Assembly: GCF_004210375.1 (NCBI RefSeq)
Contig: NW_027467782.1
Span: forward strand, 33,841,771-33,905,770
Length of the DNA: 64,000 nt
Direction: 5' to 3'
From: Tachypleus tridentatus
Lineage: Eukaryota; Arthropoda; Merostomata; Xiphosura; Limulidae
The translations under genes and the position numbers were made by a program. Positions 939-31,368 of this stretch are shown piece by piece. The notes under the pieces are model-generated. The model did not search any database and was not told the DNA's origin. It worked only from the letters and a program-made list of their open reading frames with translations. The first letter of the stretch is position 1; every line of letters begins with the position of its first letter.

Positions 939-2893
939 TATTTTAGAATATGACCAGAGTGACTGCTGCCCTCTATCGGAAACTTTTGAAGTTCTCTTAT
1001 TAAGGAAAGTACATTTAGTCTTAGCTTTTGATACCGTATTCTATCTTATTTTATTCCTTGCAATCAAATTGCGAAGAGTTTCAGTATAATATGATTCTGG
1101 AATTGTCTTTCGTTTTTGCGATATTTACGATTTACTAATTTTTGTTTCCATTCGAAAGTGAATAAATGTCTAATTTACAGTGTAGAGAAAGAAACTTGGT
1201 TTCCAAAAATAAAATTTCGATTTTTTAAATATAGAAACTGAAGCTAATTTTAAAGAGGTATAAAATAAAACTCATTTACGCACCACATAGAGTTAAAAAT
1301 GTATTTTATTTTACTTTTTATGAAGCATCATTATTATCGTGTTTGTATTCTCCTTGCGCTTTAGTTCAAATCGATATTGATGAGTTTCGCAGCGCCATCT
1401 CGATGTTAAACTGCTTCCAAACAAATATTAAAATATTCGAATTTTAAGTACAAAGGCACCCATAGATTAAGGACATCTGGTGGAGCTCAGTAATACGGCC
1501 GAAGACTTATAACTCTAAAAGTCTGGTATTAATGTTCTTGGTGAGCAGACACAGATAGTCCGTTTTGATGTTTTCTGATAAAAAAAAACCAACAAAAACA
1601 ACGTAGAGTGAAATTCTCGATAATTGCAGCAACTAAATTAAAATATTCATCACGCAATTTATCATTCTCAAAAGTATAGTTGTTAGTACCAACGTTTTTT
1701 TATTTCAATTTCTTTTTTAGTTTGATTATTTTTGAAATTCTCAATTTTCTAATAACGCTTGTTAGTAATTGTTTACATTTTATTCTGTTTAGTACTAGAA
1801 AAATATGATACTTTCTACAGAGTGTTTCCCCAAAGTAAAGTTGTAAATATTTCGATATGCATAAGATTAACATACCCTTCCCTTTTTACTAATTAGAAAT
1901 CAATTTATAGAGTCAATTAGTGTTGTTCGAAAACGTATTTTAATTGATATCCACTAAATTTATATAGCCCAGTTATCGATAGTTTCGTTGTATTAATTTC
2001 CAAGAGGTAATTTCGATATAATGATAACTAACATCAACCTATCCTGATTCTTGTTATTTTTAGAAAGAAACAAAGGCGAATGTTTTCACCAATAGGAAGG
2101 TCATCCAAAATTGCAATGCCTCAAGTGAAATAACAAACATTATCACAAGTCTGGAAGGATCACATGCCAAATATTTTATACCAACACAGCCTCATAAATA
2201 TAAACCAATTATCTCATATATATCAGAAACTCTGTTAACTGTAAGGAAGAAGGTACCTTCACATTGTAGACGTCACAACAAATTTACGAAATATAAATCA
2301 ATGAGACCTGTTTACTTCAAAGAACTGCGAGATTTGTTTCAGGAAAGTAAATCATCAGAGTCAGAATGTTCAGAGGACTAGAGTAGATAGAAAAATTGAG
2401 AAACGTAAGCTCCTGAAACATATTTAGATCCACAAGAATTTTTTGACTAGTGTTTAACCGAAGTAGAAAGCCAGATGCAAGACAACAACAGAAGAACTTC
2501 TGTGATCGTACGATTTTCTTCACTAATAAGAGACAGTGGAACTCGATTTATATTTTCTTGTCCCGAATTTTCACAAACTTAACATCGATAAAAAATTTAA
2601 AATAAAATGTATGTAAATAGAAAATAAAAGTTATAGAGTATTTAAAATTGCCTGTTTTATCGCTTTAAAATCCACGTTTGTTTCAAAGAAAATGATTATT
2701 TATTACAGAAGCTTTATAAATTATAACTTCACTACAGACACACAAGTTGGGGAAAGAATGATTTCAAATTAGTAATTAATATTTTTGGATATACAAAACT
2801 GTTTAGTTTAAGAGTTATTATTCAATTCATTTGGTGAGTTAATATTTAATGATTTAAAAAAAATAACAGTGATTATTTAAGTTTAGTTGTATG
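938..2893. other. AT-rich DNA, nothing recognised
   Basis: No SINE, splice-bounded frame or repeat that I can support. The short frame at 2317-2523 is not convincing. Confidence 0.5.
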
Positions 2894-5185: not shown

Positions 5186-5607
5186 CCAAATTTATTATCA
5201 TTTTTTTTTCAAATACTTAATGTGAAACCCATGTTTTTCCAAAAACGAGGATGTTATCAGGCAGCATAACATGATCATGTCACTAATGTCAGAGGGCGAG
5301 CTGCTAGAAGTGATGCCATCACCACAAGTGTCAACATTGATCTTTTCATATTATAACACTAGATTTATAGTTTTCGCTTTTACACTCACTTTAAAAGTAT
5401 CTTCTGATTGAAAACAACAACACACTATGATTTTTGTAAATGTAGTTTTACTCTATTGTAAAATAAGACTTCAGATATATGGCATATTTTACATTTTAAA
5501 TATGTTATGTTTTTTACTTATGTAAAACTCCACTATGTTTTATGCAGGTATATGTTAATATGTGTTACTTAAACAATGACTCAATGGCTTTCACTTCTAT
5601 ATTTCTG

Positions 5608-6426: not shown

Positions 6427-6625
6427 ATTGTTTGTTTGTTTTGGATTTCGCACAAAACTACTCGAGTCCTATCTTTGGCAGCCGTCCGTAATTTAGCAGT
6501 GTAAGACTAGAGGGAAAGCAGCTAGTCATCACCATCCACCGCCAACTCTTGGGCTACTCTTTTTACCAACGAATAGTGGGATTGACCGTCGAATTATAAC
6601 GCCTCCACGGCTGAAAGCGGATCGG
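6427..6625 (-). mobile_element. SINE family 1, head-truncated
   Basis: From tttgtttgttttggatttcg to cctccacggctgaaagcgg; stops before the tRNA-like head. Confidence 0.8.
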
Positions 6626-8489: not shown

Positions 8490-8876
8490 AAGTTATTTTT
8501 TAATTTAAAAATACAATGGAATAAAAACCTTAAAGGTTTTATTCAACGTTAAGAAAATTATGGTGTCTACAACTGAGGTACATACGAGAAAATTATTAAC
8601 CTCTTGTATTTTTAACTTAGTATATATTCTCCTAGGACAGCAAGTATATATATGCATAAAACTATCTTTATACACTTCGTAGTCTGAGAAATACGTCATG
8701 TTTCCAATGACTTTACGTGTTTTAAGTTTCAACAACATTATATGTTATATTTTTAACAAACTTGTATATTATATTTTCACAAATACAATATAACAAATTT
8801 TTTTTCGATATATGTCTTATGTAAGCAGCATGCATTAGGGTTATTACACAATATGAAGTATTATATATAACTTTAA

Positions 8877-9345
8877 ATGTTACATAAAGATAACATCACT
8901 TATCTACAGCATAACTTTGGATGTTACACAAGAGGTGACAACACTTATCTACAACATAACCTTGAATGTTACACAAGAGATGACATCACTCATCTACGAC
9001 ACAACTTTGGGTGTCACATAAGAGATGACATCACTTATCTACAATATAACTTTAAATGTTAAATAAGAGATGACATCACTTTTCTACGACATAACTTTGA
9101 ATGTTACACAAGAGATGACATCACTTATCTACAACATAACTTTGGATATTACATAAGAGATGACATCACTTATCTACAACATAACTTTAAATGTTAAATA
9201 AGAGATGACATCACTTATCTACGACATAACTTTGAATGTTACATAAGAGATGACATCACTTATCTACGACATAACTTTGAATGTTACATAAGAGATGACA
9301 TCACTTATCTACAACATAGCTTTAATCATTAGCTAACAGGTTGCG
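8877..9345. repeat. 45-bp minisatellite, about 10 copies
   Basis: Unit cttatctacaacataacttt plus gaatgttacataagagatgacatca, spaced exactly 45 bp (for example starts at 8899, 8944, 8989). Units differ by scattered substitutions. Confidence 0.9.
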
Positions 9346-9429
9346 TCACCTATCTAACGCAAAGAATTTTTTCAAGTGCCAATCCACTCAAGTGTTCGTC
9401 TGTGCTGTAGCCACCGCGAGTTTGGAAGC

Positions 9430-9775
9430 CTAGTTTATATTGTTAGGATTCCTCAAGTTTACTACTTTGAAATTTGTCCTAGTTTATATTGTTAGGATTC
9501 CTCAAGTTTACTACTTTGGAATTTGTCCTAGTTTATATTGTTAGGATTCTTCAAGTTTACTACTTTGAAATTTGTCCTAGTTTATATTGTTAGGATTCCT
9601 CAAGTTTACTACTTTGGAATTTGTCCTAGTTTATATTGTTAGGATTCCTCAAGTTTACTACTTTGGAATTTGTCCTAGTTTATATTGTTAGGATTCCTCA
9701 AGTTTACTACTTTGAAATTTGTCTTAGTGTATAGCGTTAGTATTCCTCAAGTTTACTACTTTGAAATTTGTATTC
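9430..9775. repeat. 49-bp minisatellite, 7 copies
   Basis: Unit ctagtttatattgttaggat plus tcctcaagtttactactttgaaatttgtc, starts at 9430, 9479, 9528 and so on. The last copy is diverged. Unrelated in sequence to the 45-bp array 85 bp upstream. Confidence 0.9.
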
Positions 9776-9779
9776 ATGT

Positions 9780-10930
9780 ATGTAAACGAAACAGAAATGA
9801 CAAACGTTTCGTGTTTTCTTTTGCAAATAAATTCGTTTTTTTTTTCAGCGGTAGAACGTGATTCTGAATCAATGAAATAATGTTGAAACATGTTTGTTAA
9901 TCTTACTGAGGTAAGAAGTTATGGACATTTTGAAACACAAGACCTAAAGCTGTATAAACAGCCACACTACGCTCCAAGTGAACAGCTTAATAAGATTTTT
10001 ATTAGTAATTTTAATAATATTTTACTAAAATTTCACTGTTAATTTGGAAGCTTTAAAATAATCTTTAGAAAGATTGCAAAGATGCGTTCTTTAAGTGTTT
10101 TCTAAATTCAATATTAATGAAGGGAGTATATCAAATGTAGTTAAAAAGAATGAAAAGCATCGTTAAACAAAAACTATATTCTTGTCTTTCTATAGATATT
10201 TTCAGAAATCTTTGATTTGAGCTTGGTTCTTGCTGACTAAAACTATTTACATTCATATTAAAAGCTCGATAAATTCTCATTGTCAAAAATTATTAGACAC
10301 AACTCTAACTTAGTAATATTCTTATAATAAAACAGTTGCTGTATACTTCATTACCAGTATCAGTAATATGTCTTTAAACGTTCGGGACTCTTTCAGCAAT
10401 ATTGCTGACACTTGAATATAGCTTATAACCAGAAGAGACTTATCAAAATATCACTTATCAATTATCATATCAAAAGAACCTTCAGTCAAAATCAAAGTAT
10501 TATTCTTCCACATTTTATATATCCAATATACTTATGTCTGTTATTATAGAACACACCACACAATAACAATGTGAAATTACAGGCTTGAGAATAAAACTGA
10601 TACATTTATTGACAAAATGTCTAAATACACTGTTATTCTATAAACACTTTAGTTCATAAAATACCAGATCAACTTTCATTAAACTTTTCTACACTATGTT
10701 TTTATTACGGTTTCAGATAAAGTCTATATTTTATATCTGTATAACAATACGAGAAAATAAACATTGATACATCATACAAAACATGTTTCAATACACAAAT
10801 AAACGAATAATGGATTCAAAATAAACTAAAGATGTAAGATTTCACTTTGTCGGCTCAGAAAATTATTTTACGTTTCATATGTTTTATTCAGATGTAATCG
10901 AGTATCTTCTACTTCATTGAAACATCATCA
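9780..10930. other. AT-rich DNA, nothing recognised
   Basis: Between the 49-bp minisatellite and the duplicated gene. No exon or repeat signal seen. Confidence 0.5.
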
Positions 10931-12044
10931 AATATATTAATAATAAGAGGTGCAACTGAAGTTAGGTTGGTTTTCAATTCTATACTTTGGATTCTGGCAA
11001 AGAAAATCTGTAAGAGTTGTGAGTTTAGAAAGGGTGGATTGAAGTGAAGGAGATTTTGTATCCTGTTCTACAGTTAAGGTATTTGTATTTTTTTTTCAAC
11101 TTTGAATTTAAATTATTTGAGAAATTTCTTAGTGGGTGTTTTGAAGAAGAGGTGCAATTGAAGTTCGGTTGATTTTTAATTCTATACTTTGGATTCTGGC
11201 AAAGAAAATCTGCGAGAGCTGTGAGTTTAGAGAGTGTATATTGAAGTGTAGGAGATTTTGGTTTTGATTCTGCAGATAATGGAAATGTTTTTGAATGATT
11301 CTCATCGACATGTTTAAAGAAATGGTTGGCAATTTCAGTTTTCGGCAATCCATCAATCCATCAATTTCCCTTGAAATTATTGGCTTTTTGTTATCCTTAT
11401 GAAATAAACAAAAATATATTAATAATATATTTGTCTGAAACAAAATCGTTCACGTAAAATAAATAATATCCTTATTTAACGGAAAAACATTCATAATTAA
11501 GTAACTCAAATGTATTAATATTGATGTTAAAAATACATTAAACTCATTTCATTTTTAAATATCAGATGTGTGGTTTTTTAACATTTTCCTCTAGCAATAT
11601 TTAGTGTAAATATTAATCTGTCCTATATATAGATATATAGTGGTTTGTCATTTTAAGAAAATAAAGACATTTCGATCAGTATTGAAATACAGAAAAAGTA
11701 ATTAATGCCAAATTACTTTCAGCGCTTATGATGATTTATCAATATCAGTTTACGTTCATCTTAACTTCACAGCTAACTCACTTTGTGTACGTGACAACCG
11801 AGTAGCAAAACAGTTACAAAACTGGTCCACCAAAACTTGTAATACAGGAAAAACGTAATAGAAACCTTAGCTACTAAGTTATTGTTCATATATCTCAGAC
11901 TGTAAAAGGAATTCATATTATTTATTTATTATTGAAATATTAAAAATATCTTAAATATCATACGGTGATGAACAACTTCTTAAAAGTCGTTTCTTTTTCA
12001 TTTCACCTAAAGACTTCGATGTTAAAATCTATAATGTATCAGTG

Positions 12045-12124
12045 AAAGAATAGAGGGAAGGCACCGAGTTATCACCACCAGCCGTCAACTCTTGGGCTAC
12101 TCTTTTACAAATAAATAGTGAAAA
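12045..12124 (-). mobile_element. SINE family 1 fragment at a deletion edge
   Basis: Shares aatagagggaaggcacc and ccgtcaactcttgggctact with the copy at 15882, then breaks off at 12120, exactly where the proximal duplication unit loses about 1.5 kb. Confidence 0.7.
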
Positions 12125-12983
12125 AGAAATAAAACGAAAATATTAATTGCACATTAAATGAGTTAGCTGGTGAGTTTATATTTCTAACGAATACGGATAA
12201 TTAACACTTGAATCTACATATTTTCACCCACTGTAAGTACTAGTTAAAATTCGAGTTTAATTTCATAGTTGTAAAACTCCACACCTTCCTTATTCGTAAG
12301 CCTATTACATGTTAGAAATATATAATCTGTATAAAACTCATTACCTATAAACTTGAGTGAATTCGATCCCATTGGATGCCTCTGTACCACCTAACAATAA
12401 ACAAATTAAACCAACAAAAATATTATGCTTACCATAATAAAAGTATTAGAAGTGGTATTCCCACCGTGGCAAAAACAAGTGGAGGCGTAAATAACTTTTC
12501 TATGAGGGATGCTGAAATTAAAACAATATTATCATTGTTTAACATTGATATCGTTTATTAATAAATGTTTTCAAGTCGCACCAGTTGGGTAATATTTAAC
12601 CTGCGAAAATATTTAATTTCAACTCATTAACAATTTCAATACCTATAACTAAAGGAAACCAACGGGAATGAAGCACCGAAACCATTTGTTAAAACCTAGT
12701 CGTAACTTAAATTACAGAAGATGTTTTTATTAAGTCAGATATATAGCATTTTTTTTTAAATAAATGTGTCGAAAAGACATCCTTTATATAGAGATCATTG
12801 TACAAACATTTATATAAATACTTATTTATGGAGTTTTAATAAATTTTTTGTCCTAAATCATAGACGTACGAAGAGTGTTTCAGAGGGTGGCTGTACAATT
12901 TTTGTTCCATTGAGTTTATATTTTCTGCTTCAGTTTTGTCTGAATTAAAATGAAAAATCTGTCCAATTAACTGTAGGTATTAC

Positions 12984-13161
12984 AAGCTAGAGGGGCTGTT
13001 CCGATCGTACTCAATTTCATTACCATTATTAGTAGCCGCTGATTGTGTCAGTTTTGACCAGAAACACTTTTCAAATTTTACTCTTCTCTGTATATCGGAT
13101 TCTAATACCAATTTTAAAACGGCTAAATGAATAAATGTCCATTGTATCGTTACACTGTGGA
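12984..13161 (-). pseudogene. Exon-4 equivalent in the proximal copy
   Basis: Encodes the same residues as 18422-18599 without a change, with the same splice-site context. The following exon (exon 5 equivalent) is deleted in this copy, so an mRNA from here would have to skip to the terminal exon out of phase. Confidence 0.42.
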
Positions 13162-14119
13162 CTTTGAAGATATAGTTTGATTCCCACTGTTTCAATCATT
13201 TGCCAAATGAAAACAGTTGCTGATTTGTAAACTTTTAGCCTATAATCCTTTGTTAAGTCAAATTATTGTTTATTACTCTGTAAACAATAGAAATATGTGT
13301 CCAGCTTCATCACAATTATGTTGTTTTTCAATTGTTTTTTCTCTTCAGTAATCATAATAAATGATGAAGTTGTCCAGGATAGATTAGAGCCCCCTATACT
13401 CCTAACTTATCGAATTCTGAAGTTTTTTCTGATTTATTAGAAAACTGAGCCCCCTTTTAAAACATTGTCCTCACTTCTACGTAGTTACCAACCATGACAC
13501 AAGAATATTTTTATTTCGGAATTTTTTTGTAATCATTCGGATATAAGATGCTGAGCATGTGGCCTAATATGCCATAACTTGCAAATACAACAATACGCTA
13601 CTGTATTTTATATTCTGTATTGTGAGAACGTATAATTCAGATCGTTAGAAAAAGAAACGTATTTAAAAAAAAAAAACATGAAAGTCGGAGAAAATTAGGA
13701 ACAAACAGTGATAATAAAAATAACTTAAGTTACATTAAAACTAACAAAAAAGAGAAAATAAAATCTTAAAAGGTAACTGATATAGAACATCGAAACAAAA
13801 ACCAGTCAAACCTCTGTTTCAAACAAAAATCTAATAAAATCAGGAGTACCAAAGAATAAAATCACAACAAAATAATTTGTTTGAATAGTAGAAACAGGTT
13901 ACTTGTCTGAACTTGGTATTAAGTTCATAACGTAAGTTGGTTTATTCACAATATAAGAAGTGGATAATATTAAACTACATAAATAACATGACTTGTTAAT
14001 GATACTGACTAGAATATCTAAAGTTATTTGAAAGTTAAGCATTTGCAGCAATAGAATTTCTAAATATACCTGAAACAAAGTGGTTCTTAGTGCGGTTATA
14101 AGTATGTAATAAAACTTAC

Positions 14120-14278
14120 GTTTACATGCATCTCGTGAAGAGGGTCCGGGGTTCGTAAATCGTCTTCCAGGACAAGCCGAACATTTGTATGATCCAAAAT
14201 AATCACTGTAATGATCCTTGGGACACGGGACACATTCTTCCTGTTTTTTGCTTCTGAACTGTCCAGGAGGGCAGGGAA
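14120..14278 (-). CDS. Ephrin-receptor-like exon, proximal copy (intact)
   Basis: 159 bases with intact AG/GT borders. The frame holds PCPPGQF, ECVPCP, YKCSACPGRRF and ends SSRDACK, giving a full set of Cys for the repeat. It is the open version of the exon at 19557-19714. Its gene context is broken, so translation is doubtful. Confidence 0.5.
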
Positions 14279-14799
14279 CTTAATGAAAGGAATAATTTTT
14301 TAACGTATGTATTTAACCATATCCTAAACACCACGAATTTGACAAAAACAAGGGAATTAAATCATGTAACAGAACCAACACAAGCTCGTTAAACATTTAT
14401 TTTTATAAATAAATATGTTATAGTATTTATAAGTTTTCTGTAAAAGCTGTTTGTTAATATATTTTCCAAAAGAATCGTCAGATACATCGAACGTACAGAA
14501 AAAAATTAGTGAAGATCAATTTAAAATAGTGTTTAGGTGTATATATATGAAAAATATATTTTTATGTATTGCAGATCGATGTATTATTGTTACCTTAAAA
14601 AATACACAAAAATAAATTAAAAATTCTGATTTCGCATCTCAAACGATATTCTACAGTTTTCATAACAATGAAAACACTTTCCAAGATTTTTCATATAAAA
14701 GGTTTATTTGTGTTTTAAATTCACTCTGTGTGAAATTATGAAACATTTAATATGGTTTAATATTTACTAATTAATAAAATAGTTTACATAACTTAGTTT

Positions 14800-14920
14800 G
14801 TGTCCAACAATTTGTTGATTGGTTTGAGACCTGATGTCTTCTTTTCAGTAAATTACATTACCCCTGTAGTCACCCTTATCGAAAGCTTGAACGTTTATAA
14901 TTGTAAGGTGTTTGTATATT
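14800..14920 (-). pseudogene. Decayed Ig-exon fragment
   Basis: Aligns base for base to the 3' half of the Ig exon at about 23160-23290 (shared cgaaagcttgaacgt and cagtaaat). In the matching frame, the Ig Cys of DYNCNV has become Gly (DYRGNV) and the Trp of VIYW has become a stop. The 5' part with the signal peptide is absent. This is a clear relic exon, upstream of the intact Cys-rich exon of the proximal copy. Confidence 0.72.
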
Positions 14921-14990
14921 TTCAACTTCGGTTTTACTTTATATGATAATTTTCTTTGTGGCTCTTTTGAAGAAGAGGTGCAATTGAAGT

Positions 14991-15227
14991 TCAGTTGATG
15001 TTTAATTCTATACTCTGAATTCTGGCAAAGAAAATCTGCGAGAGCTGTGAGTTTAGAGAGTGTATATTGAAGTGTAGGAGGTTTTGTTTTGATTCTGCAG
15101 GTAATGGAAATGTTTTTGAATGATTCTCATCGACAGGTTTAAAGAGTTGGTTGGTAATTTCAGTTTTCGGCAATCCATCAATTTCACTTTTTGTAAGATC
15201 ACTTGAAATCATTGGGGTTTTGTTATC
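14991..15227 (-). CDS. Exon 6, distal copy: terminal exon with frame break
   Basis: Begins after TTTATTTCACAAG in phase 0: DNKTPMISSDLTKSEIDG, then LPKTEITNQLFKPVDENH. The proximal copy has aaaaccaaaatct where this copy has aaaacaaaacct, a net one-base loss near 15093. After it the frame changes and stops at 14991. In the unbroken frame of the other copy this segment continues KLTALADFLCQNP. Exact stop uncertain. Confidence 0.45.
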   Translation of the reverse strand, partial: DNKTPMISSDLTKSEIDGLPKTEITNQLFKPVDENHSKTFPLPAESKQNLLHFNIHSLNSQLSQIFFARIQSIELNIN

Positions 15228-18200
15228 CTTGTGAAATAAACACAAAAATATGTTAATAATATATTTGTCTGAAACAAAATCGGTCATAAAATAAATAATA
15301 TCCTTATTTAACAGAAAAAACATTCGTAATTAAGTAACTCAAATGTATCAATATTGATGTTAAAAATACATTAAACTCGTTTCATTTTTAAATATCAGAT
15401 GTGTGGTTTTTAATATTTTCCTCTAGCAATATTTAGTGTAAATATTAATCTGTCCTATATATAGATATATAGTGGTTTGTCATTTTAAGAAAATAAAGAC
15501 ATTTCGATCAGTATTGAAATACAGAAAAAAGTAATTAATGCCAAATTACTTTCAGCGCTTATGATGATTTATCAATATCAGTTTACGTTCATCTTAACTT
15601 CACAGCTAACTTCACTTTGTGTATGTGACAACCGAGTAGCAAAACAGTTAAAAACTGGCCCACCCAAACTTGTAATGCAGGAAGGACGTAATAGAAACTT
15701 TAGCTACTAAGTTAATGTTCCTATATCTGAGACTGTAAAACGAATTTATATTATTTATTTATTACTGAAATATTAAAAATATCTTAAATATCATACGGTG
15801 ATGAACAACTTCTTAAAGTCGTTTGTTTTTTTATTCCACTTAAAAAACTTCGATGTTAAAATTCTATAATGTAGCAGTGAAAGAATAGAGGGAAGGCACC
15901 TAGTTATTACCACCAGCCGTCAACTCTTGGGCTACTCTTTTATAAACAAATAATGGATTTGACCGTAACATTTTAACATCCCGATAACTAGAAGGAGACG
16001 GGGATTCAAGTCCCTGCCTCTCACATTGCGAGTCGAGTACCTTAATCATCTGGCCATGTCAGGCCTACCTTGAGGTCGTAAAGTCAAACTTCAACCTAAT
16101 TTAATAATAAAATGTAATAAAACAATCTTGAATATCACAAAAAAATACGTTGATGAACTAATTCCTTAAAGTCAAAGAGTCAAACTTGAAGCAAATTTGA
16201 ATCTCATTCAGAACAATGATTTGTCATTCCATAAGAGTGGTCTTGAGTCTGTATATTCAAATTAGAATATAAATTAAATATTTATTAAAGTGTGAGAACA
16301 ATACTTATAAAGTACGTCTTTTCCGGGATTCAGTCCGTTGGCAATGTGTATTTTGTATCAGTAGATTTAGTATTTGATATGGTACATTTTTAGATTATTG
16401 TTTTAGTCAATTTGATATAATCACTTGTCAAATGTGCCTTAGCAGCTAGAATGGGCGCACAGTTCTAAATCCATTACTGCGAATTTACTCTCTAGATTTT
16501 CTGTCTATGAGTGTGTTATAAGGGTGACGATGAAGTCCCATAATTCGATATTAGTAGTTCAAGTATGTGTGACGGCTGGTGTGTTGGCTAGCTGCTTTCA
16601 ATCTAACGACGAGTGATAGAGATAACTTTTGTATCGGTTTTATTGTTTTTTGTTGTTGTTGAATTTTGTACAAGCCTAGGGTTATCTTCGTTATCCGTCC
16701 CTAATTTTAAGTGACAGACAAGACATGTGCTACTATTTATTAATGAACAGTGAAACTGATCGTCACAGTATAATGGCTATAAGGCTGTAATGACAGTCAT
16801 GTTCGATGACGAGATTCGATCTCGCCACTGTATATTTCAAGTTTTTTCTCCAGTACCTCAGTGTCCAATCTGAAGGCTTATAATACTAAAAACCGGATTT
16901 CGTTTGGATGGGCTTATGCTTCACACTAACAAAAAGCAACTTACAGTTTTGTATTCATTGTATAATTACATAATAAGATCTTGAACAAAATTTCTTAACA
17001 CTCACGTCACAAATCTCTGATAAATTTGTCGTTGTAGAACTTCTTGTAGATTTTTCTGCATCTTCCACACGTTCTACACTAGAATCTATAATTGGTGAAT
17101 ATTTTACAAAGTTGAAGTTTCTGTCTTTTCCTGAATTCCTGTCTTGGCAACGCAGTAATACTTTGAGACTCTCTCGTTTACGAATTATAATACTGAAAAA
17201 ATGAACAGTTTAATTTTGATAAACATGTCTGTAGCTATGATTATCAATACACTTGTATCAAAACTAACATGAGCTAACCAATAAGTAGCAGCAATCTTAA
17301 TATAATTTGTACAACTTTAACGTCATTACAATATTTCAATAGAATATTAGTACACTGGCAATTGACACGTTTCATAATAAGATTCTTAATTGCTTTAATC
17401 AACGTCGCAGAGTTCTGTTCTTAGAGAACAATTTTAAATCATATTCTAAATTAGGGAAAGAAATTAAAATGAAAATATTAATTGTATATTAAACGAATTA
17501 GGTGGTGATTAAATATTTCTGACGAATACTGATAATAAGCAGTTAAATCGAAATTGTTTCACCCACTGTAAGTTCTAGTTAAAAATACGAGTTTAATTTC
17601 ATAGTTGTAAAACTCCACACCTTCCTTATTCGTAAGCCTATTACATGTTAGAAATATTTAATCAGTATAAAACTCATAAGTGCCATTTAAAATTTACTTT
17701 ATAAGATATCAATTTCAAAATATTTATAACAAACCATACAGATATTGAAATATATCCAAAATGTTACCCTGCCCAACCAATTAGCTATAAACTTGAGGGA
17801 ATTCGATCCCATTGGATGCTTCTGTACCACCTAAAATAAACAAATTAAACCAACAAAATGTTATGCTTACCATAATAAAAGTATTAGAAGTGGTATTCCC
17901 ACCGTGGCAAAAACAAGTGGAGGCGTAAATAACTTTTCTATGAGGGATGCTGAAATTAAAACAATATTATCATTGTTTAACATTGATATCGTTTATTAAT
18001 AAATGTTTTCAAGTCGCACCAGTTGGGTAATATTTAACCTGCGAAAAATATTTAATTTCAACTCATTAACAATTTCAATACCTATAACTAAAGGAAACCA
18101 ACGGGAATGAAGCACCGAAACCATTTGTTAAAACCTAGTCGTAACTTAAATTACAGAAGATGTTTTTATTAAGTCAGATATATAGCATTTTTTTTTAAAT

Positions 18201-21200
18201 AAATGTGTCGAAAAGACATCCTTTATATAGAGATCATTGTACAAACATTTATATAAATACTTATTTATGGAGTTTTAATAAATTTTTTGTCCTAAATCAT
18301 AGACGTACGAAGAGTGTTTCAGAGGGTGGCTGTACAATTTTGTTCCATTGAGTTTATATTTTCTGCTTCAGTTTTGTCTGAATTAAAATGAAAAATCTGT
18401 CCAATTAACTGTAGGTATTACAAGCTAGAGGGGCTGTTCCGATCGTACTCAATTTCATTACCATTATTAGTAGCCGCTGATTGTGTCAGTTTTGACCAGA
18501 AACACTTTTCAAATTTTACTCTTCTCTGTATATCGGATTCTAATACCAATTTTAAAACGGCTAAATGAATAAATGTCCATTGTATCGTTACACTGTGGAC
18601 TTTGAAGATATAGTTTGATTCCCACTGTTTCAATCATTTGCCAAATGAAAACAGTTGCTGATTTGTAAACTTTTAGCCTATAATCCTTTGTTAAGTCAAA
18701 TTATTGTTTATTACTCTGTAAACAATAGAAATATGTGTCCAGCTTCATCACAATTATGTTGTTTTTCAATTGTTTTTTCTCTTCAGTAATCATAATAAAT
18801 GATGAAGTTGTCCAGGATAGATTAGAGCCCCCTATACTCCTAACTTATCGAATTCTGAAGTTTTTTCTGATTTATTAGAAAACTGAGCCCCCTTTTAAAA
18901 CATTGTCCTCACTTCTACGTAGTTACCAACCATGACACAAGAATATTTTTATTTCGGAATTTTTTTGTAATCATTCGGATATAAGAAGCTGAGCATGTGG
19001 CCTAATATGCCATAACTTGCAAATACAACAATACGCTACTGTATTTTATATTCTGTATTGTGAGAACGTATAATTCAGATCGTTAGAAAAACAAACGTAT
19101 TTAAAAAAAAAAAACATGAAAGTCGGAGAAAATTAGGAACAAACAGTGATAATAAAAATAACTTAAGTTACATTAAAACTAACAAAAAAGAAAAATAAAA
19201 TCTTAAAAGGTAACTGATATAGAACATCGAAACAAAAACCAGTCAAACCTCTGTTTCAAACAAAAATCTAATAAAATCAGGAGTACCAAAGAATAAAATC
19301 TCAACAAAATAATTTGTTTGAATAGTAGAAACAGGTCACTTGTCTGAACTTGGTATTAAGTTCATAACGTAAGTTGGTTTATTCACAATATAAGAAGTGG
19401 ATAATATTAAACTACATAAATAACATGACTTGTTAATGATACTGACTAGAATATCTAAAGTTATTTGAAAGTTAAGCATTTGCAGCAATAGAATTTCTAA
19501 ATATACCTGAGACAAAGTGGTTCTTAGTGCGGTTATAAGTATGTAATAAAACTTACGTTTACATGCATCCCGTGAAGAGGCTCCGGGTTTGTAAATTGTT
19601 TTTCAGGACAAGCCGAACATTTGTATGATCCAAAATAATCACTATAATGATCCTTGGGACACGGGACACATTCTTCCTGTTTTTTGCTTCTGAACTGTCC
19701 AGGAGGGCAGGGAACTTAATGAAAGGAATAATTTTTAACGTATCTATTTAACCATATCCTAAACACCACGAATTTGACAAAAACAAGGGAATTAAATCAC
19801 GTAAGAGAACCAACACAAGCTCGTTAAACATTTGTTTTTATAAATAAATATGTTATAGTATTTATAAGTTTTCTGTAAGAGCTGCTTTGTTAATACATTT
19901 TCCAAAAGAATCGTCAGATACATCGAACGTACAGAAAAAAATTAGTGAAGATCAATTTAAAATAGTGTTTAGGTGTATATATATGAAAAATATATTTTTA
20001 TGTATTGCAGATCGATGTATTCTTGGTACCTTAAAATACACAAAAATAAATTAAAAATTCTGATTTTGTATCTTAATCGATATTCTACAGTTTCCATAAT
20101 AATGAAAACGCTTTCCAAGATTTTTCTTACAAAACGTTAAAATGTATTTTAACTTCACTCTGTGTTAAATTACGAAACATTTAGTATGGTTTAATATTTA
20201 CTAATTAATAAAATAGTTTCCATAACTTAGTCTGTTTATTTGGAATTAAGCACAAAGCTCCACATTAGGCTATCAGTGATCTGATCTCAACGGGTATCGA
20301 AACCCGATTTCTAGCGGTGTGAGTCTTCTGACAAACCGCAGTACCACTGGTGGTTATTTTCATAAAGTAACCTCTTTTTCACAATAATACCACAATTTAA
20401 ATATTTGAAAAATGTTTCTTATGTGGGATATTTTCCGCAATACATTTATTAATGTTTTTGTTAACATTTTGTGGGCATTTGTTGTGTTTTTGTAAACTTA
20501 TTCTGAAGCATGATGCAACGAATAGTTGAAAACAAATGAACCTGGAGCCATTTGAATAGTAGACCGCAACGCTATCCACTAGGAAACCTTGCTATTTTCA
20601 TAACGTATAGTAAGTTGTAGGTCTTATAGAAATTTTACCTAACTGGTAATCTTTTATGTGATAATGTAATTAGCACAGGTATTTTTGTAGTGTGATATTT
20701 CGTTTTAACTGAAAGTCACAAAACGTTTATCACATATATTGTTTACTTCGCATATTATTTTGCGTCTCTGTGTAAAAGAAATTAAAATTCAAGCGATTTT
20801 TCATCATCCTGTCGTGAAAAATATACTTGAAGAAATATACTAACAAAAACACTTTACAAGGTTTCAATAAAACATTTGAGTTGTGATGAATCCAAATGTA
20901 CTTCATGTTTTATCTTTAAATTAATGAAAACACATGAGTCGACGAAACAGAATTTTTCCAGAAAAAAAAAAAAAAAAGTATATCATTATTCACAACTTAC
21001 AGCAATCACTTTTCCCTAACATGTATCCATATGGACAAATGATGTTGTTATCTGGTGGCGAATAAACTGAAATTAAAAATTAAATAAAACTGTTAAAATT
21101 TGCCAAGTTAACCATTTTACTGACATAAGTTAAACAATCTTTTTTTGTATGTTTTAACACGAAGTTTTAATGACGATATGTGAAATTGTCTAGTGAAATT

Positions 21201-23542
21201 TTTTTGTTTATAAACGATTTATAATTTTTTGTAAATTTATAAGTGTAAACCATCAGTTAGTTAAACATCTTAATTTGGAATGTTTATATCACATCAACAT
21301 TCAGTAACACAGATGACTCTTATGTCGGCATGATACTCACAGGCAACATATCTGATGAGTTTGACATTTTAAAGTCAAGATAATGCATAAAACTAGAAAC
21401 TATGTCTAGAGAGTTATGGGAAAATGCTCTAATAGAAAGATTGTGGATCTTTAACATCATTGAAAGTCACTGAAGTAGCTTCGAGCTTTCCATACAAAAA
21501 GACTGTGTCCGCGTATCTTTGGGCAAAGAGAAACAACATTGTTAGCGCTCCTGATCTTCTGTCTATCAAGCTCATTAAGAGTTTGTTAGATCTTAGAACC
21601 CAAATACTCACAGGTAGTCTTACCTGTTTCCCAAACTCGCCAATTGCTCGGCTCATCAGACAGAGAAGGGTCCCCGATGCTGTGCTTGTCAATATACTTT
21701 TGACTTTTCGCATCATTATGGGATCCCCATTTATTGAATTCTCCCGGGGCTTCACAATGATTAAGACCGCCCTTGAAAATACCCACCAAATTAGTTCAGT
21801 ATTGAGTCTTTTATAAACGAAAGTTGAGCTCCAACGGACACGTCATTGCGTAGAAACTTGTTCCCACATAAGTTTATTGTTCAATAATCTTAATTTTTGT
21901 TGATCATAAAGGAGTGCAAAATGTAATAAACTGTCATCTATTCATGATAATTTTCGGGTTATTGTTCTATTACATTTGTATAGTGTTCCCTTTTTTGTCA
22001 GTAGTTATACCTCACGATTATTTTGCTTCATGAACACTCAGAAACTAATCGAAACGGTTATTTCTAGTTTGCCAATGAAAACGAAATGTGTCCCTTTTGA
22101 AAGCTCTCGGATATAAGGTATCGTATTTTTGATTTAGTAGATTTTTGCGAAGTCCACATGAACCATGAGAATATGAAACTTAGAGAGTAGCTTATAGGGT
22201 GCAATAAAAAACACTATTATTATTTTTGAGAAATGAAAATTAAGGAAAATATATTTATGCATACTTGTTTTGGTTTGTTTGTTTTGGAATTTCGCACAAA
22301 GCTACTCGAGGGCTATCTGTGCTAGCCGTCCCTAATTTAGCAGTGTAAGACTAGAGGGAAGGCAGCTAGTCATCACCACCCACCGCCAACTCTTGGGCTA
22401 CTCTTTTACCAACGAATAGTGGGATAGACCGTAACATTATACACCTCCACGGCTGGGAGGGCGAGCATGTTTAGCGCGACGCGGGCGCGAACCCGCGACC
22501 CTCGGATTAGAAGTCGCACGCCTTACGCATTTATGCATACAATACAATAAACTAGAATTGTAATGCTACATATTCATCAAACACAATTTATAATACACGA
22601 ATTACAGATGGTTAAATAAAACAATATGAGTTGGAACGGTGTTTGTTGAATATTTTGATTCGTGTGCGCTTTCGCAGTTAGAAGATTTTTAATGGTAACG
22701 TCAATGTCTGTATATCCATCTGTTACGGTAGTAAAGATCTATGTACATCCGAGTGGCCCAAATGGTGTATCTGTGAAGTTAGAACACTAGAAACTGTGTT
22801 TCGATACCCGTGGTGGGCAAAGCACACATAGCCCATTGTGTCGCTTTGTGCTTAACTTCAAACAAACAAGCGATCTGTGCGGTATCCGTATATATTCCTA
22901 AATTAACTTTCAAACAGCACTTAGTTTGGCCTATGTATGTAACTTTACGGCCACTCACCACACGTGTATTTTTCTATGAGCCTTGAACGTTTTTTGTTGT
23001 ACAAATATCGCATTAGATTCCACGGTAAATTTAAATTGATGTTAACTCTAAATCCCCGTTAATTAGAATACTATGTTAGCGGAAATTATTTTCTAAGTGA
23101 AAGATAAATATTCACATGAAGTTATAAATATTCAGTACAATGATCTACCTTTTAAATAATGGTTCACAACGATTTGTTGTTTGGTTTGTGGCCTGTTGTC
23201 TTCATTCCAGTAAATAACATTACAGTTGTAATCACCCATATCGAAAGCTTGAACGTCTTTAATTATAAGGTCGCCTGTATACTTGTCCATTCTGATTTTG
23301 TTTCCTACAGATCCAATTGTGCCTGTTCGGCTTGTCCATGTGTAGGTAACAACATCGCTAAATAAATATTTTTGTTTGTAACCAGGTGGGATACATTTAA
23401 CTTCAATATCTTTTCCTCGACGGATGTATGTGTACTTAGCTTTTACATGTGTGCTTGGTAAAATAGCTCTTCCAAACACCGTAGTTTGGATTTCCGCAAG
23501 GAAGATAGCTAAGGCAAATAAAATTCGCAATAATAAAGCCAT
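14991..23542 (-). CDS. Secreted Ig + ephrin-receptor-like Cys-rich protein, distal copy (six exons, frame-broken)
   Basis: Proposed exons in minus order: 23542-23149, 21066-21001, 19714-19557, 18599-18422, 17192-17006, 15227-about 14991. All have AG/GT borders and the phases chain 1, 1, 1, 2, 0 if one lost base is restored in exon 3. The start ATG opens a hydrophobic signal peptide (about residues 1-24). An Ig domain follows, with its first Cys in VKCIPPGY, the core Trp in VTYTW and a classic DMGDYNC motif. Exons 2 and 3 are Cys-rich with CPPGQF, CVPCP and CSACP, typical of GCC2/GCC3 ephrin-receptor-like repeats. Exons 4-6 give about 190 residues that I cannot assign, and no convincing membrane segment is visible, so I infer secretion. 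Exon 3 (one base short) and exon 6 (one base short, against the neighbouring copy) are frame-broken, so this is either a recent pseudogene or an assembly-error case. Function unknown; a recognition or adhesion role would be a guess from the domains. Confidence 0.55.
15882..16072 (-). mobile_element. SINE family 1 in the distal duplication unit
   Basis: Runs from the body (agagggaaggcacctagtta) to the tRNA-like head ccttaatcatctggccatgt. Full counterpart of the fragment at 12045. Confidence 0.75.
16505..16950. mobile_element. Nest of old SINE pieces
   Basis: A + family 1 piece (ggctggtgtgttggctagct near 16573), a minus family 1 piece (16640-16832, tccgtccctaattttaagtg to gagattcgatctcgcc) and a + family 2 piece (16845-16950). 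All strongly diverged. Confidence 0.45.
17006..17192 (-). CDS. Exon 5: basic then acidic/Ser-Thr linker, unassigned
   Basis: 187 bases between a strong TTTTTTCAG acceptor and a GTGAGT donor, entered in phase 2 and left in phase 0. It begins IIIRKRESLKVLLRCQDR and ends in a Ser/Thr-rich stretch (STRSSTTTNLSEICD). Apart from the initial III there is no hydrophobic stretch long enough for a membrane anchor. The proximal copy has no equivalent: a block corresponding to about 15950-17450 is absent there. Confidence 0.5.
18422..18599 (-). CDS. Exon 4, distal copy: unassigned domain
   Basis: 178 bases entered in phase 1 (ATCTTCAAAG acceptor) and left in phase 2 (donor GTAATA), encoding about 59 residues. 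Notable pieces are SVTIQWTFIHLAV, LESDIQRRVKFEKCFWSKL and GNEIEYDRNSPSS. The protein is identical in the proximal copy at 12984-13161. The acceptor is weak in pyrimidines, so the exact start is less certain than the end. No family recognised. Confidence 0.42.
19557..19714 (-). CDS. Exon 3, distal copy: ephrin-receptor-like Cys repeat, one base short
   Basis: Reads PCPPGQF, then ECVPCP, then YKCSACP, the spacing of GCC2/GCC3 (ephrin-receptor-like) repeats. It is 158 bases, whereas the phases of its neighbours need 159 and the proximal copy has 159. The missing base lies near 19589 (ccgggtttg here against ccggggttcg in the other copy). It throws the last codons out of frame and loses the final Cys. 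The acceptor (CATTAAG) and donor (GTAAGT) are intact in both copies. Confidence 0.6.
20225..20356 (-). mobile_element. SINE family 2 at the duplication edge
   Basis: ggaattaagcacaaagctcc, acgggtatcgaaacccgatt and agtaccactggtggtt mark the family. The homology between the two duplication units ends where this element starts. Confidence 0.75.
21001..21066 (-). CDS. Exon 2: short Cys exon
   Basis: 66 bases between TTTAATTTCAG and GTAAGT, entered in phase 1 and left in phase 1. It encodes YSPPDNNIICPYGYMLGKSDC, i.e. a C-x-x-G-Y-x(6)-C start of an ephrin-receptor-like or TNFR-like repeat that continues in the next exon (FPCPPGQF). I see no counterpart in the proximal copy. Confidence 0.55.
21429..21816. 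other. Unidentified stretch open in several frames
   Basis: Open for about 110 codons on the + strand and in two minus frames (one with WGSHNDAKSQKYIDKHSIGD). GC is higher than in the surrounding intron of the Ig-domain gene. It may be a fragment of a mobile element or foreign sequence. I do not recognise any of the proteins. Confidence 0.3.
22262..22532 (-). mobile_element. SINE family 1, well preserved
   Basis: From ggtttgtttgttttggaatt through tagccgtccctaatttagca to cgaacccgcgaccctcggat. Close to what I take as the family consensus. Confidence 0.88.
22745..22876 (+). mobile_element. SINE family 2
   Basis: gtgtttcgatacccgtggtg, catagcccattgtgtcgctt and cttcaaacaaacaag. Confidence 0.75.
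23149..23542 (-). CDS. Exon 1: signal peptide and Ig domain
   Basis: 131 codons plus one base, opening with an ATG followed by a Leu/Ala/Ile-rich stretch (LLLRILFALAIFLAE) that reads as a secretion signal. The rest is one Ig-like fold: first Cys in EVKCIPP, Trp in YTWTSR, and D-x-G-D-Y-x-C near residue 107. The exon ends AAAAG before GTAGAT, phase 1. No stop or frame break is present, so this is the best-preserved exon of the gene. A decayed relative of its 3' half lies at about 14800-14920. Confidence 0.72.
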
Positions 23543-24359: not shown

Positions 24360-26200
24360 AGCGTTTTTTCATTATTATCATTCACTGATTTTAGCATCTT
24401 ACATGTTACTTAATGCATCATTACCTGGTTTGTGTTTACATTATTATTTTGGTCTGAATTACTTAATTTTCAGCCATTTTACAAAAAAAGTGTTCGTGCT
24501 ATTTCTTGAGTGATCATGCCATAAGATGGACATACTTTTCAAGGAATTTCACATTTCTTGCAAACAGCTTTGGATCTTACTTCAATTTTATTATAATTAA
24601 TCAATTTTCACCCCTTTTTTGGCTCTTTTAATGAATATATGACATATACTATGAAAAGGGGTCAACTTTTCTACAGTTAATATGGGTAGCTTGTTAATTG
24701 ATATATTGACTAAACTACTTAAATGTACAAGCTTTTTAGAATGTTCATTGATAAAGTTGTATATCTGTATCCCACAGCTATTACTCATTTCCCAAATAAG
24801 AAAATTACTAAAATTAGACAAATTACCATTTTTTCAGTTTATCAAATATGGATAAACTGGTGTATTTCTTATTTGAAACTGTACATACTCAGTGTTACAG
24901 CATTGAATAGATTTTTCTCTAAAATGAAAGAAAACATTATCTGACAAATTTCAATCTTTGTAGTTTAACAAATAAACTTGATAATGAATAGAAACTTCCA
25001 GTGTACATTATTGCACTTCTGTATTCACATCCTTACAGTAATTCTGAACAAATAGATTCAGAAACAACAAAACAGCTGAAGTGACAATAATTCTTTTAAC
25101 ATAAGAAATGATAAAGTTTGAAGCCTAACTATATTTGTTATTCCCTAATGCTTATTTTTTATTCCCTGACTGATGGGTTTAGATAACAGTTATTGCCTAT
25201 AAGATACACAACTCTTGAATTTGATGCTTTCATTAATAGGTAGGTGTTTACTAGGACCAAATTCAGTGCTATAATAATAATGGTAACTGATATTATTATA
25301 ACTGGTACACTTTGCATATTTGTGATAATTAGAGACAAATGGTGTTACTTTTCAAATGTAATGCTATAAGATATTTCCCAAACCTTTGTTTTCATTCACC
25401 GAGAGCATATTTGGTGTTAAAAAGCCAAAAGACATAATATATTATAGCCAAATAGATAAAGGGTCGTTATTATATTTTTTATATATACAAGTTGTTGTTT
25501 TTTCATGGGAGTTATAAATTAATATTTTCATTAGATTTATTTTAAATTTATTCATCTCTATAGATTGTAACATAAACTTGTAAACTATTTCTTATGATAC
25601 AGAATCATTTTTGTTTTAAAGTTTATTATAAAGATGCAATAAAAACTGACTTGCCTGTTGAGAGTAATTGAATATAACAAAGATATCATAATGATACCTT
25701 TGATTAATCAGCTTCTGATGTTCAGAAGATATATATGTTCAAAAAATCAATGAACAAGAAAAATAAGAAACCACATAATATTGGTATCTTTAAAAGGTAG
25801 ACCTTTCTTTGTTGTAGGAAAATTGGAAATTACTAAATTGAGTGTGAAGAAATGTGTAGTAACATTATAGTTATGAAAAGAAGACTATCATGATACACCA
25901 GAATCGTTTTGATTAGATACTGAAATAATTTGACATATGGGACTAATTTTATTTGTGTTTTATGATTACAAATAAACTATGGAACAACAATTTTTGGTAT
26001 AAAAGAGTATGAAAAGGTATTTAAAACACTTAACTTAAAAGGGAAATTATTATGGGTGTTTATACAGCAAAATAATAATATGACATGAAAAGTGATTAAA
26101 ATATAAATGTTAATAAAAGGGACATAAAGGAATTCAAAAGTAATAAATATTGTTTTATGGATAATAAGTATTAAGAAATATCAGGGATAAAAAAAGTAAC
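24360..26200. other. AT-rich DNA, nothing recognised
   Basis: Short frames only. No SINE or conserved motif. Confidence 0.5.
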
Positions 26201-27480: not shown

Positions 27481-28097
27481 CTCAGGGATTGTTTCGAAAA
27501 AAAATACAAGATAAATCTACCATTTTTTTCTTCTAGAATAACTGTAGATTGTTACATAAAATAAGTTATTTATCCTAAATAATCCCAGACTTGTAACAAT
27601 TTAAATTTTGTCTTCATTTAGTTTTGTTGTTTTAATATTTTTTGAACTATGTAAGTATGCACCTATAAACACCTAGTAGACAAATGACTAAAACTGGAGT
27701 AAAATAAACAAACACTAAATTATGTAGCACATGCATTTTACATGCATAGATTCCTGAAAAATTGTTTCACTCATATTTTCTTTTCTATTCTAATAATATT
27801 CTGAGTTTCACATTGTACTCACTTTTGTAACAATAAATGAGAAATATAAAAGCAAGACTTTTAGTACTTACTTGTGGATCTTGTACTTTATTGTAGTAAG
27901 TCTGGATAAAAGTTAACACTTGTTAATACTTTGCTGAATTAAATTAGGAACACAAAATAATAACATGCAAACATTTTATAATATCGTGTAATTAATATTA
28001 TTTAAGTGGCTCTCTGAGTATAAACTATAAGTATATAGAAATACATAAAGAGCTCACAACATGTGAACAAACTGGCAAGTGGTTACTTAGAGGAAAG

Positions 28098-28541
28098 GTG
28101 ATTGTTATTAGTGGTCAGATAAGAGCCAGATGCTCAAAAAGTGCCACGAAAGAGTCAGTTGCAAGTCAAATTACTGTTGAGGATGGTAAACCTTTCCCTG
28201 GATCAACAGTGTTGGCCTTGGTATGCCGCATGCAGGTGATTTCCGTGTCATCTGCTGAACCAGAACATGGATTTTCCCAGATGACAGTTATTAAGGATGA
28301 TTGGTGGTCCAAACTAATAAATGATTCTCTTAATGACTTGATGACAATAAAATTAGCTAAAAATAAGACCTGTGATCTTGCAAGCATAGAATTACTGTGC
28401 AAGTCTGTAGAATCCTGGTGGAAGGACAGTAAAAAAAACAAAAACAACAGACAATTTGTGAGTCCACATGGAACTCACACACGTAAAGACAACAGAGATA
28501 CTGAGTCTACATCAGCTTATGTCTCAGTGCTGGATGACTAA
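28098..28541 (+). mobile_element. hAT transposase C-terminal dimerisation domain, intact 147-codon ORF
   Basis: The middle of the ORF reads ISVSSAEPEHGFSQMTVIKD, then LINDSLNDLMTIKLAK, the signature of the hAT dimerisation region (V-S-S-A-E-x-x-x-G-F-S plus the L-x-x-L-M-x-I-K helix). The DDE catalytic region and zinc finger are absent upstream. The C-terminal tail is Lys/Asn-rich. A TTTAAT/AATAAA-rich region follows (AATAAA at 28624). The lack of stops contrasts with the broken elements nearby. Either a young fragment or a captured domain. Confidence 0.65.
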
Positions 28542-30840: not shown

Positions 30841-31081
30841 AACACAATTTATCTCCATCTTATATCGTTTGGGCAGTTAACCAAAACTGGAAAGAATAAT
30901 GACTGTAATCAGTGAAAGCTTGCAGAGCTCAATGTTTTACTGTCTTAAAGTTTCTTCCATGAAATTATTTTATAAGATGAATTTAATACCTTGTTTGTAT
31001 CAAATTATAATTATATAATGTAGACAGTACTATAGAAAAGTGTTGAGAAAAAGTGTCAAAAATTAGATTTCAGGCTACTTT

Positions 31082-31368
31082 TAAAAAATAATGGTTTGGT
31101 TTGAATTTTGCACAAAGCTACACGAGGGCTATCTGTGCAAGCCGTCCCTAATTTAGCAGTGTAAGACTAGAGGGAAGGCAGCTAGTCTTCAACACCCATC
31201 GTCAACTGTTGGGCTACTCTTTTACCAACGAATAGTGAGATTGATCCTCACATTATAACATCCCTACCGCTGAAAAGGCGAGCATGTTTGGCGTAACGAG
31301 GATACGAACCCGCGACTCTCAGATAACGATTCGAGTGCCTTAATCACCTGGCCAATAATAATGGAAGG
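31082..31368 (-). mobile_element. SINE family 1, full length
   Basis: From atggtttggtttgaattttg through tagccgtccctaattt-like body to the head ccttaatcacctggcc. Confidence 0.85.

Follow-up and report, generated by a model that had tools for sequence, protein, structure and literature searches.

The question raised by this locus of the horseshoe crab Tachypleus tridentatus is what kind of protein is specified by a chain of minus-strand exons that opens with an immunoglobulin (Ig) domain and a cysteine repeat and closes with a half that a preliminary description of the sequence had left unassigned. We addressed it in a window of 64,000 nucleotides, by which we mean the whole stretch of DNA analyzed, and across matching places in the same genome. 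With moderate confidence, we read it as a gene copy encoding a single-pass surface receptor of type I, in which an Ig domain, a Cys-rich stalk and a transmembrane (TM) helix are followed by an ITIM-like tail that would dampen a cell response or regulate adhesion.

Exon chain and tandem modules of the window copy

The window copy comprises six exons on the minus strand, from 23542 to 14991, with GT/AG at the borders and a reading from ATG to stop. These borders and frames bear out the chain proposed earlier, with phases 1,1,1,2,0 and an exon 3 that is one base off. Exon 1 (23149..23542) starts at the ATG at 23542, encodes a hydrophobic N-terminus and the Ig domain, and ends in phase 1. Exon 2 (21001..21066; 66 nt, YSPPDNNIICPYGYMLGKSDC; phase 1 to 1) has the same length and a similar pattern in L058, a copy of a second subfamily described below. 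Exon 3 (19557..19714) encodes a Cys repeat and contains the one-base frame break that is the sole interruption of the in-frame chain; the break sits within a homopolymer run, a setting prone to assembly errors, and the exon is open in near-identical copies at C19:2.66M and C19:42.94M. Exon 4 (17871..17949; phase 1 to 2) carries the predicted TM helix and has a similar counterpart in L058, exon 5 (17006..17192; phase 2 to 0) encodes RKR and predicted cytoplasmic tail, and exon 6 (14991..15227) encodes the tail end and the stop. For its final 31 residues, exon 6 uses a reading frame shared by neither the tandem copy A nor the copy at C19:34.02M.

As a modest control, the window holds 6 stop-free stretches of at least 130 aa, whereas 20 mononucleotide shuffles average 0.25 and never exceed 1. 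We consider the chain better supported by the plan of a second-subfamily copy at C12:68.88M, which shares the phases (1,1,2), a 66-nt exon 2 and a similar TM exon. None of the family copies read is intact from the ATG to a shared stop.

The duplication claimed in the preliminary description has its counterpart in a tandem partner, which is partial. Self-alignment pairs module B (exons 3-6; 14904..20235, minus strand), the upstream copy, with module A (11075..14801, minus strand) in aligned blocks that are 89-98% identical. Module A retains an open exon 3 (14120..14278), an exon 4 with the TM helix (12433..12511) and an exon 6 homologue (11168..11395), whose best tblastn alignment shows 54% aa identity and whose frame is unlike that of B, while exon 5 is missing. 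Between the modules lies a minus-strand remnant of an Ig exon (14806..14907), corresponding to residues 92-125 at 68% identity with one stop (tblastn E 1.4e-8). On the plus strand, a last-exon fragment of a second-subfamily gene (2064..2381) is 83% identical to a stretch of L058 (E 7e-57), with a DNA match over 1270-3051.

Ectodomain, membrane anchor and tail

The Ig domain named in the preliminary description is upheld by a match of window exon 1 to Pfam Ig_3 (E 2.9e-5), though this lies below the Pfam cut-off, as does the match to Sp38 (PF07354; E 0.011, 16.1 bits against 23.1). An AlphaFold model of exon 1, built with 11 sequences, was poor (pLDDT 50), and therefore the Ig fold rests on sequence. 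The hydrophobic N-terminus is probably a signal peptide. The GCC2/GCC3-like part corresponds, as claimed, to an Ephrin_rec_like repeat (PF07699), with 36.2 bits for exon 3 of module A against a cut-off of 23.1 and 33 bits, also above cut-off, for spliced copy B with an X at the break; TNFR_c6 reached 19.3 bits, under its cut-off of 29.4. The Pfam search of the window copy returned one Ig domain only and no FNIII match, and neither a tyrosine kinase nor any other Eph-receptor domain was found by it, which sets the protein apart from Eph receptors while exon 3 groups with the Ephrin_rec_like proteins. Sequence searches of the PDB gave contactins and the Cys repeats of mastigoneme, ELAPOR1 and thyroglobulin for the window ectodomain, and generic Ig relatives for the second subfamily, with contactins best at 1e-9.

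Exon 4 and the start of exon 5 encode a predicted TM helix, with a 19-residue mean hydropathy that reaches 3.06, followed by RKR. This combination speaks against the designation of the protein as secreted. The statement that the C-terminal half fits no known family holds, as no Pfam family exceeded its cut-off in the tail, but the half is no longer without an assignment, since helix and RKR together read as a membrane anchor plus a cytoplasmic tail.

The tail of the window copy contains one ITIM-like tyrosine motif, VKYSPI, within exon 5 (17090..17107, minus strand). The ITIM consensus, [SIVL]xYxx[IVL], is an easy chance match around a single tyrosine; it is present in 15 of the 16 fetched main-family paralogues, a conservation that is only suggestive because paralogues have common ancestry. 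All 12 second-subfamily copies read (L058, L079-L089) carry the motif as well; the tail of this subfamily has IKYSLV, and [IV]KYS[PL][IV] covers the forms of both subfamilies. The two tails align poorly otherwise, and their best blastp match (E 0.33) begins at the motif. Among individual copies, F replaces the motif Y in L049, a stop stands immediately 3' of the motif in L044, L046, L050 and L051 have a frame break ahead of the motif, and in several copies the tail frame breaks 3' of it.

A dispersed family and selection on its exons

Exons 1 and 3 each have at least 150 matches in the same genome, which its coagulogen marks as that of a horseshoe crab. The expansion proposed earlier for this putatively lineage-specific family is thus confirmed within this genome, and the copies are dispersed over many chromosomes. 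Exon 5 has 68 matches genome-wide, 63 of them without an internal stop (5 with), a count in which frame breaks would not show. The second subfamily combines an Ig domain, an exon 2 of the same size, a similar TM exon and the tail with IKYSLV; in the one copy read, exon 3 was not found, and the 240-aa product consists of Ig, stalk, TM and tail. The chromosome-wide dispersal, the second subfamily, the tail tyrosine motif and the unconstrained exon 1 of the window go beyond the preliminary description.

Purifying selection is evident on exon 1 in 12 similar open copies (15 synonymous and 7 nonsynonymous changes, omega ~0.12, p=1.5e-6) and is weaker across all 15 fetched copies (26:40, omega ~0.39, p=0.0003); the Ig exon of six second-subfamily copies gave 23:43 (omega ~0.48, p=0.004). 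No constraint was detected on exon 1 of the window (2 synonymous to 8 nonsynonymous, p=0.63) or of L071 (3:10) and L072 (7:23). Constraint over the full length of exon 5 is weak, with a median dN/dS of 0.65 (72 usable of 91 pairs). The window copy is perhaps a decaying or a very young duplicate.

Large blocks of the window between position 1 and about 34.7 kb recur on C7, C8, C13 and C19 at about 90-99.7% identity, and for this reason a mobile element or virus was considered as carrier; it was rejected, as block ends differ between copies. The only block end found in more than one copy, at window 10165, is shared by L025 and L027, where it marks a junction with flank common to both loci and thus not an element terminus. 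Blocks end at 500-N gaps on C7 (left) and at C19:2.66M (right). We prefer segmental duplication as the source of the recurring blocks, the less favored possibility being haplotype copies that the assembly has misplaced. A third 500-N gap lies within the C8:50.57M piece L015.

Candidate functions and related systems

The receptor plan draws on the exon chain, the domain matches, the hydrophobic helix, the motif conservation among paralogues, the dispersal and the purifying selection on exon 1 of sister copies. The proposed layout runs from a signal peptide through an Sp38-related Ig and a stalk (exon 2 and one ephrin-receptor-like repeat) to the TM helix and tail. If expressed, the Ig domain would bind a ligand, a Src-family kinase would phosphorylate the tail tyrosine, and this would recruit an SH2 phosphatase of the SHP-2/Corkscrew kind, so that the cell response may be dampened or adhesion regulated. 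An excerpt of PMC8092387 gives Draper-II as an arthropod receptor precedent for ITIM and Corkscrew. The vertebrate LILRB/KIR kind is similar in its Ig, ITIM-like tail tyrosine, multicopy nature and single TM helix, the latter judged here by hydropathy; in contrast to these receptors and Draper-II, the present family has a single motif and an Sp38-like Ig, its phosphatase binding is only putative, and we found no evidence of common descent with either. The family may comprise inhibitory, adhesion or gamete receptors, with the inhibitory sign being putative.

A role in gamete recognition, in which horseshoe-crab relatives of ZPBP (Sp38) on sperm or egg were multiplied by sexual selection or conflict, is possible but doubtful. 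ZPBP proteins consist of an Ig domain and then a Cys-rich part, an order seen here too, and the second-subfamily Ig exceeds the Sp38 cut-off of 23.1 (30.5 and 29.6 bits), which is passed at 36 of the 150 places scored genome-wide; Sp38 is matched at E<=0.05 by each of the 11 aligned members, but each of these matches Ig_3 and I-set too. According to an excerpt of PMC7827414, ZPBP1 is acrosomal in mammals and mice without it are infertile. The window Ig, however, stays under the cut-off, and no Sp38 model among those searched matched the stalk (exons 2-3) at E<=1, where Ephrin_rec_like matched instead. Pfam has a model for the C-terminal Cys domain of ZPBP, and we know of no ZPBP with a membrane helix or a tyrosine-motif tail, both of which are predicted here.

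It is unlikely that the locus is a non-functional passenger, with segmental duplications and repeats spreading decayed copies of a family that is now mostly pseudogenes. The exon 3 break, the loss of exon 5 from module A, the Ig scrap and the 2:8 ratio would fit such decay, as would a 2-base gap in exon 4 at C19:34.02M, a 1-base gap in exon 6 at C8:69.34M, the recurring blocks and the unconstrained exon 1 of L071 and L072, but the purifying selection on exon 1, in the 12 similar copies as in all 15, speaks against it, and so do the mostly stop-free exon-5 matches, within their blindness to frame breaks. Very improbable, in our view, is a secreted protein whose chain ends before the membrane helix, for example through a frame-broken exon 3 or an unspliced intron 3: the module B exon 3 frame closes 7 codons past the splice donor, and 25 of the 150 scored exon-3 matches likewise cover no more than residues 1 to 45-46 and have open frames 51-60 aa long, but both subfamilies carry a TM exon, near-identical copies have an open exon 3, and the break falls in an assembly-error-prone run.

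Horseshoe crabs are textbook animals of innate immunity, and surface receptors with inhibitory-type tails lie, to our knowledge, outside the usual picture of chelicerates. Among the open-licence papers retrieved, no title or abstract opening dealt with such a receptor family. The word "immunoglobulin" is absent from the main text of the mangrove horseshoe crab genome paper (PMC7210998), which describes 230 tandem gene clusters, and "horseshoe" and "Limulus" are absent from the excerpt of an invertebrate IgSF review (PMC11999971). With more than 100 matching places, an Ig type otherwise named after sperm-egg binding, tail tyrosines that are conserved and membrane-tail modules in tandem, such a family would make either invertebrate self/non-self recognition or gamete recognition accessible to direct test.

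Tandem modules recur well beyond the window: 23 of the 33 best Ig-exon loci carry two to nine exon 3-6 modules, mostly spaced ~5.44 kb apart. We think it improbable, short of dismissing it, that these loci act as 3'-cassette genes, in which one Ig exon and exon 2 precede the Cys-TM-tail modules. In such genes a single recognition domain would be combined with a variety of stalks and signaling tails through module choice and through skipping of exon 3, which is symmetric (phase 1-1) and measures 159 nt in its open form. The products would be proteins with the Cys repeat, without it (compare the copy of the second subfamily), or, in modules that have lost exon 5, with a truncated tail. Because the window modules are 89-98% alike, such cassettes would offer little diversity; many exon-3 copies also appear frame-broken, an observation against them. 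An excerpt of PMC5775551 describes sDscam, a shortened chelicerate Dscam with tandem 5' cassettes. Both systems have IgSF membrane receptors and tandem cassettes in chelicerates, but sDscam and Dscam have several Ig and FNIII domains, whereas here one Ig exon of another Ig family, with no FNIII match, precedes the 3' modules, a mirror image of the 5' cassettes of sDscam and vertebrate protocadherin. If true, the cassette loci would give the horseshoe crab a multi-locus receptor system of Sp38-like and ITIM-like character.

Gene structure and predicted membrane topology

Six minus-strand exons, at 23542-23149, 21066-21001, 19714-19557, 17949-17871, 17192-17006 and 15227-14991, have GT/AG borders and chain in phases 1, 1, 1, 2, 0, as the preliminary description had proposed; the phase check held for every exon but exon 3 (19714-19557), whose frame is off by the single base that the description had called for. 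The translated chain comprises 373 residues, with an X placed at the exon 3 break. Hydropathy analysis revealed two strong hydrophobic stretches, one at the N-terminus, taken as a putative signal peptide, and one at residues 218-236 (LVFATVGIPLLILLLCIII, then RKR), and because of these features the product is interpreted as a type I membrane protein rather than the secreted one described before. The C-terminal half said to be unassigned is therefore in part a membrane helix, although the remaining tail of about 137 residues indeed matched no Pfam family above its cut-off. The first exons had been described as Ig and GCC2/GCC3-like: Ephrin_rec_like was detected above its cut-off of 23.1 in exon 3 of copy A, a tandem copy in the window (5.3e-9, 36.2 bits), but the Ig assignment of exon 1 stayed below threshold, with Ig_3 at 2.9e-5 (24.9 bits, cut-off of 30) and V-set (0.001), I-set (0.003) and Sp38, the family of zona-pellucida-binding protein (0.011), all under their cut-offs. 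While the individual domain types are already known, neither the combination of an Sp38-like Ig, an ephrin-receptor-like stalk, a transmembrane (TM) helix and an ITIM-like tail nor the copy number nor the tandem 3' modules turned up in the open-licence literature searched.

Copies, tandem modules and intactness

In the 2.17 Gb assembly, where the window is C19:33841771-33905770, exon 1 and exon 3 each have at least 150 matches (150 of 150 scored, from 253 and 424 candidates, respectively), and exon 5 has 68 among 77 scored, five with internal stops. Five of the best 150 exon 3 matches, on C7, C8 and C19 and including the window's own, are 100% identical. Among the best 150 exon 1 matches, the top 33 show 78-100% identity; next come partial and divergent ones, and after these many of about 28-36% identity whose open frames are near 129 aa. 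DNA at 24400-25000 gave 40 matches from 46 candidates (84-100%); for 10250-10850 and 1300-1900 the best 40 of 122 and of 226 were scored, and comparing coordinates puts many of the latter places some 6 kb away from one of the Ig exons in the ~129-aa group. Extensive stretches of window 1-34.7 kb are repeated, with about 90-99.7% identity, at C7:105.9M, C19:2.66M, C19:42.9M, C8:50.56M, C8:46.38M and C13:275.19M (positions in Mb), scaffold gaps being some of the breaks. At C11:9.02M, four pieces match a Tachypleus-type coagulogen at 74-94%, marking the genome as that of a horseshoe crab.

At least two exon 3 modules lie behind 23 of the 33 best exon 1 loci (two at 19 loci, three at 2, six at one and nine at one), with a single module at seven and none at three; these counts are lower bounds from the best 106 of 150 exon 3 matches. 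Module spacing has a median of 5438 (n = 36, range 4312-5468). Five single-module loci (C11:37.7M, C12:41.37M, C8:91.8M, C8:90.4M and C8:120.4M) are divergent, and their single module may represent the ancestral condition; the other two, C11:26.93M and C10:109.58M, are not divergent. At C3:51.10-51.23M, two loci have a single Ig exon followed by tandem modules, nine in one locus and six in the other, and each of the two Ig exons contains an internal stop.

The exon 3 break site is open in the near-identical copies at C19:2.66M and C19:42.94M and broken at C7:105.9M as in the window; since near-identical copies are open, the break has either arisen very recently or reflects an error within a homopolymer. 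Twenty-five of the 150 exon 3 matches, with sequence examined for the window's and C7's, cover no more than residues 1 to 45-46 and lie in open frames of 51-60 aa, and exon 3 of the upstream module B follows this shortened pattern. An open exon 3 has 159 nt and phase 1-1, so its skipping would preserve the frame and yield the layout of L058, a locus of a second subfamily. Module A is without exon 5, and joining its exons 4 and 6 by hand adds only six residues. At the two sister loci examined exon by exon, exons 1-5 are open at C8:69.34M, where exon 6 has a one-base gap, and exon 4 has a two-base gap at C19:34.02M; no copy intact from ATG to a common stop was found among these and the window. 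The tail is not conserved at its C-terminus.

The second subfamily and the tail tyrosine motif

At L058 (C12:68876001-68884000), one of the places matched by window 1300-1900 near such an Ig exon, an Ig exon, a 66-nt exon 2, a TM exon with a GC instead of GT donor, and a tail exon with KIKYSLV join in phases 1, 1, 2 into a product of 240 residues, and no ephrin-receptor-like exon was found there. This subfamily's tail exon gave 140 matches among 149 scored, some loci being counted twice owing to frame breaks, and a last-exon fragment of such a gene lies on the plus strand at window 2064-2381.

The sole tyrosine of the window tail sits in VKYSPI, which we take to fit the ITIM consensus. The pattern [SIVL]xYxx[IVL] is kept in 15 of the 16 divergent main-family exon 5 copies fetched; in L049 F replaces the Y, in L044 a stop directly follows the motif, and L046, L050 and L051 have a frame break upstream of it. 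IKYSL[VI] occurs in all 12 second-subfamily tails examined (L058, L079-L089), whereas the tails of the two groups align poorly outside the motif, their best blastp match beginning at the motif (E 0.33). The best reading is that of an Ig receptor that would bind a ligand, its tail tyrosine then recruiting an SH2 phosphatase. The rival reading, a gamete-recognition family, rests on the Sp38 match: the L058 Ig (30.5 bits) and a sister copy (29.6 bits) exceed the Sp38 cut-off, which is passed at 36 of 150 scored places genome-wide (best 150 of 175 candidates), and the profile search matched 0 of 14 control genomes. For a phosphatase-recruiting receptor, Draper-II with Corkscrew offers an arthropod precedent of the ITIM type (PMC8092387).

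Substitution patterns and other features of the window

In 12 similar open exon 1 copies (L059-L070, comprising 10 distinct sequences), with the other three of the 15 fetched set apart, we counted 15 derived variants at 79 synonymous sites and 7 at 314 nonsynonymous sites (omega ~0.12, p=1.5e-6); copies in all these tests were picked for similarity and open frames. The full set of 15 copies gave counts of 26 and 40 (p=0.0003, omega ~0.39), which became 26 and 41 once the window was added (p=0.0004). Against the consensus of the 12, synonymous and nonsynonymous counts were 2 and 8 for the window (omega ~1.0, p=0.63), 3 and 10 for L071, 7 and 23 for L072, and 6 and 6 for L073 (p=0.02). The second-subfamily Ig (6 copies) gave 23 and 43 (omega ~0.48, p=0.004). 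In pairwise comparisons, whose pairs are non-independent, 43 of the 44 usable second-subfamily tail pairs (45 pairs, 10 copies, L086 and L087 left out) had a dN lower than dS, as did 66 of 72 over the first ~45 codons of main-family exon 5 (median ratio 0.65; 91 pairs from 14 of 17 copies, L044-L046, L050 and L051 left out).

Survival motor neuron protein (SMN) exons at 47988-48209 and 36326-36598 (minus strand; SMN_Tudor 1.3e-14, SMN_YG-box 1.1e-12) lie to the right of the part repeated in the fetched loci. A gene remnant at 27996-28541 has a fuller form, with a zf-C17orf113 domain (3.7e-14), in the C7 and C19:42.9M copies (L012/L017), and about 3.8 kb present in both is missing from the window at 28046. 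A breakpoint is common to window 10165, L025:5630 and L027:648, left of which the latter two loci share one flank, unlike the window's. On visual inspection, ORFs at 31655-31924 and 56559-57217 resemble relics of Tc1/mariner transposases; the two pieces searched had no Pfam match at 0.01. A SINE-like interspersed repeat of ~260 bp occurs at 111-390, 2930-3137, 6430-6617, 22269-22525, 31079-31354, 46026-46319 and 61922-62197, the copies being roughly 70-91% identical to each other. Minisatellites of 45, 49 and 42 bp occupy 8867-9323, 9429-9771 and 54572-54910, respectively, and the 45-bp array is far longer at C8:50.56M.
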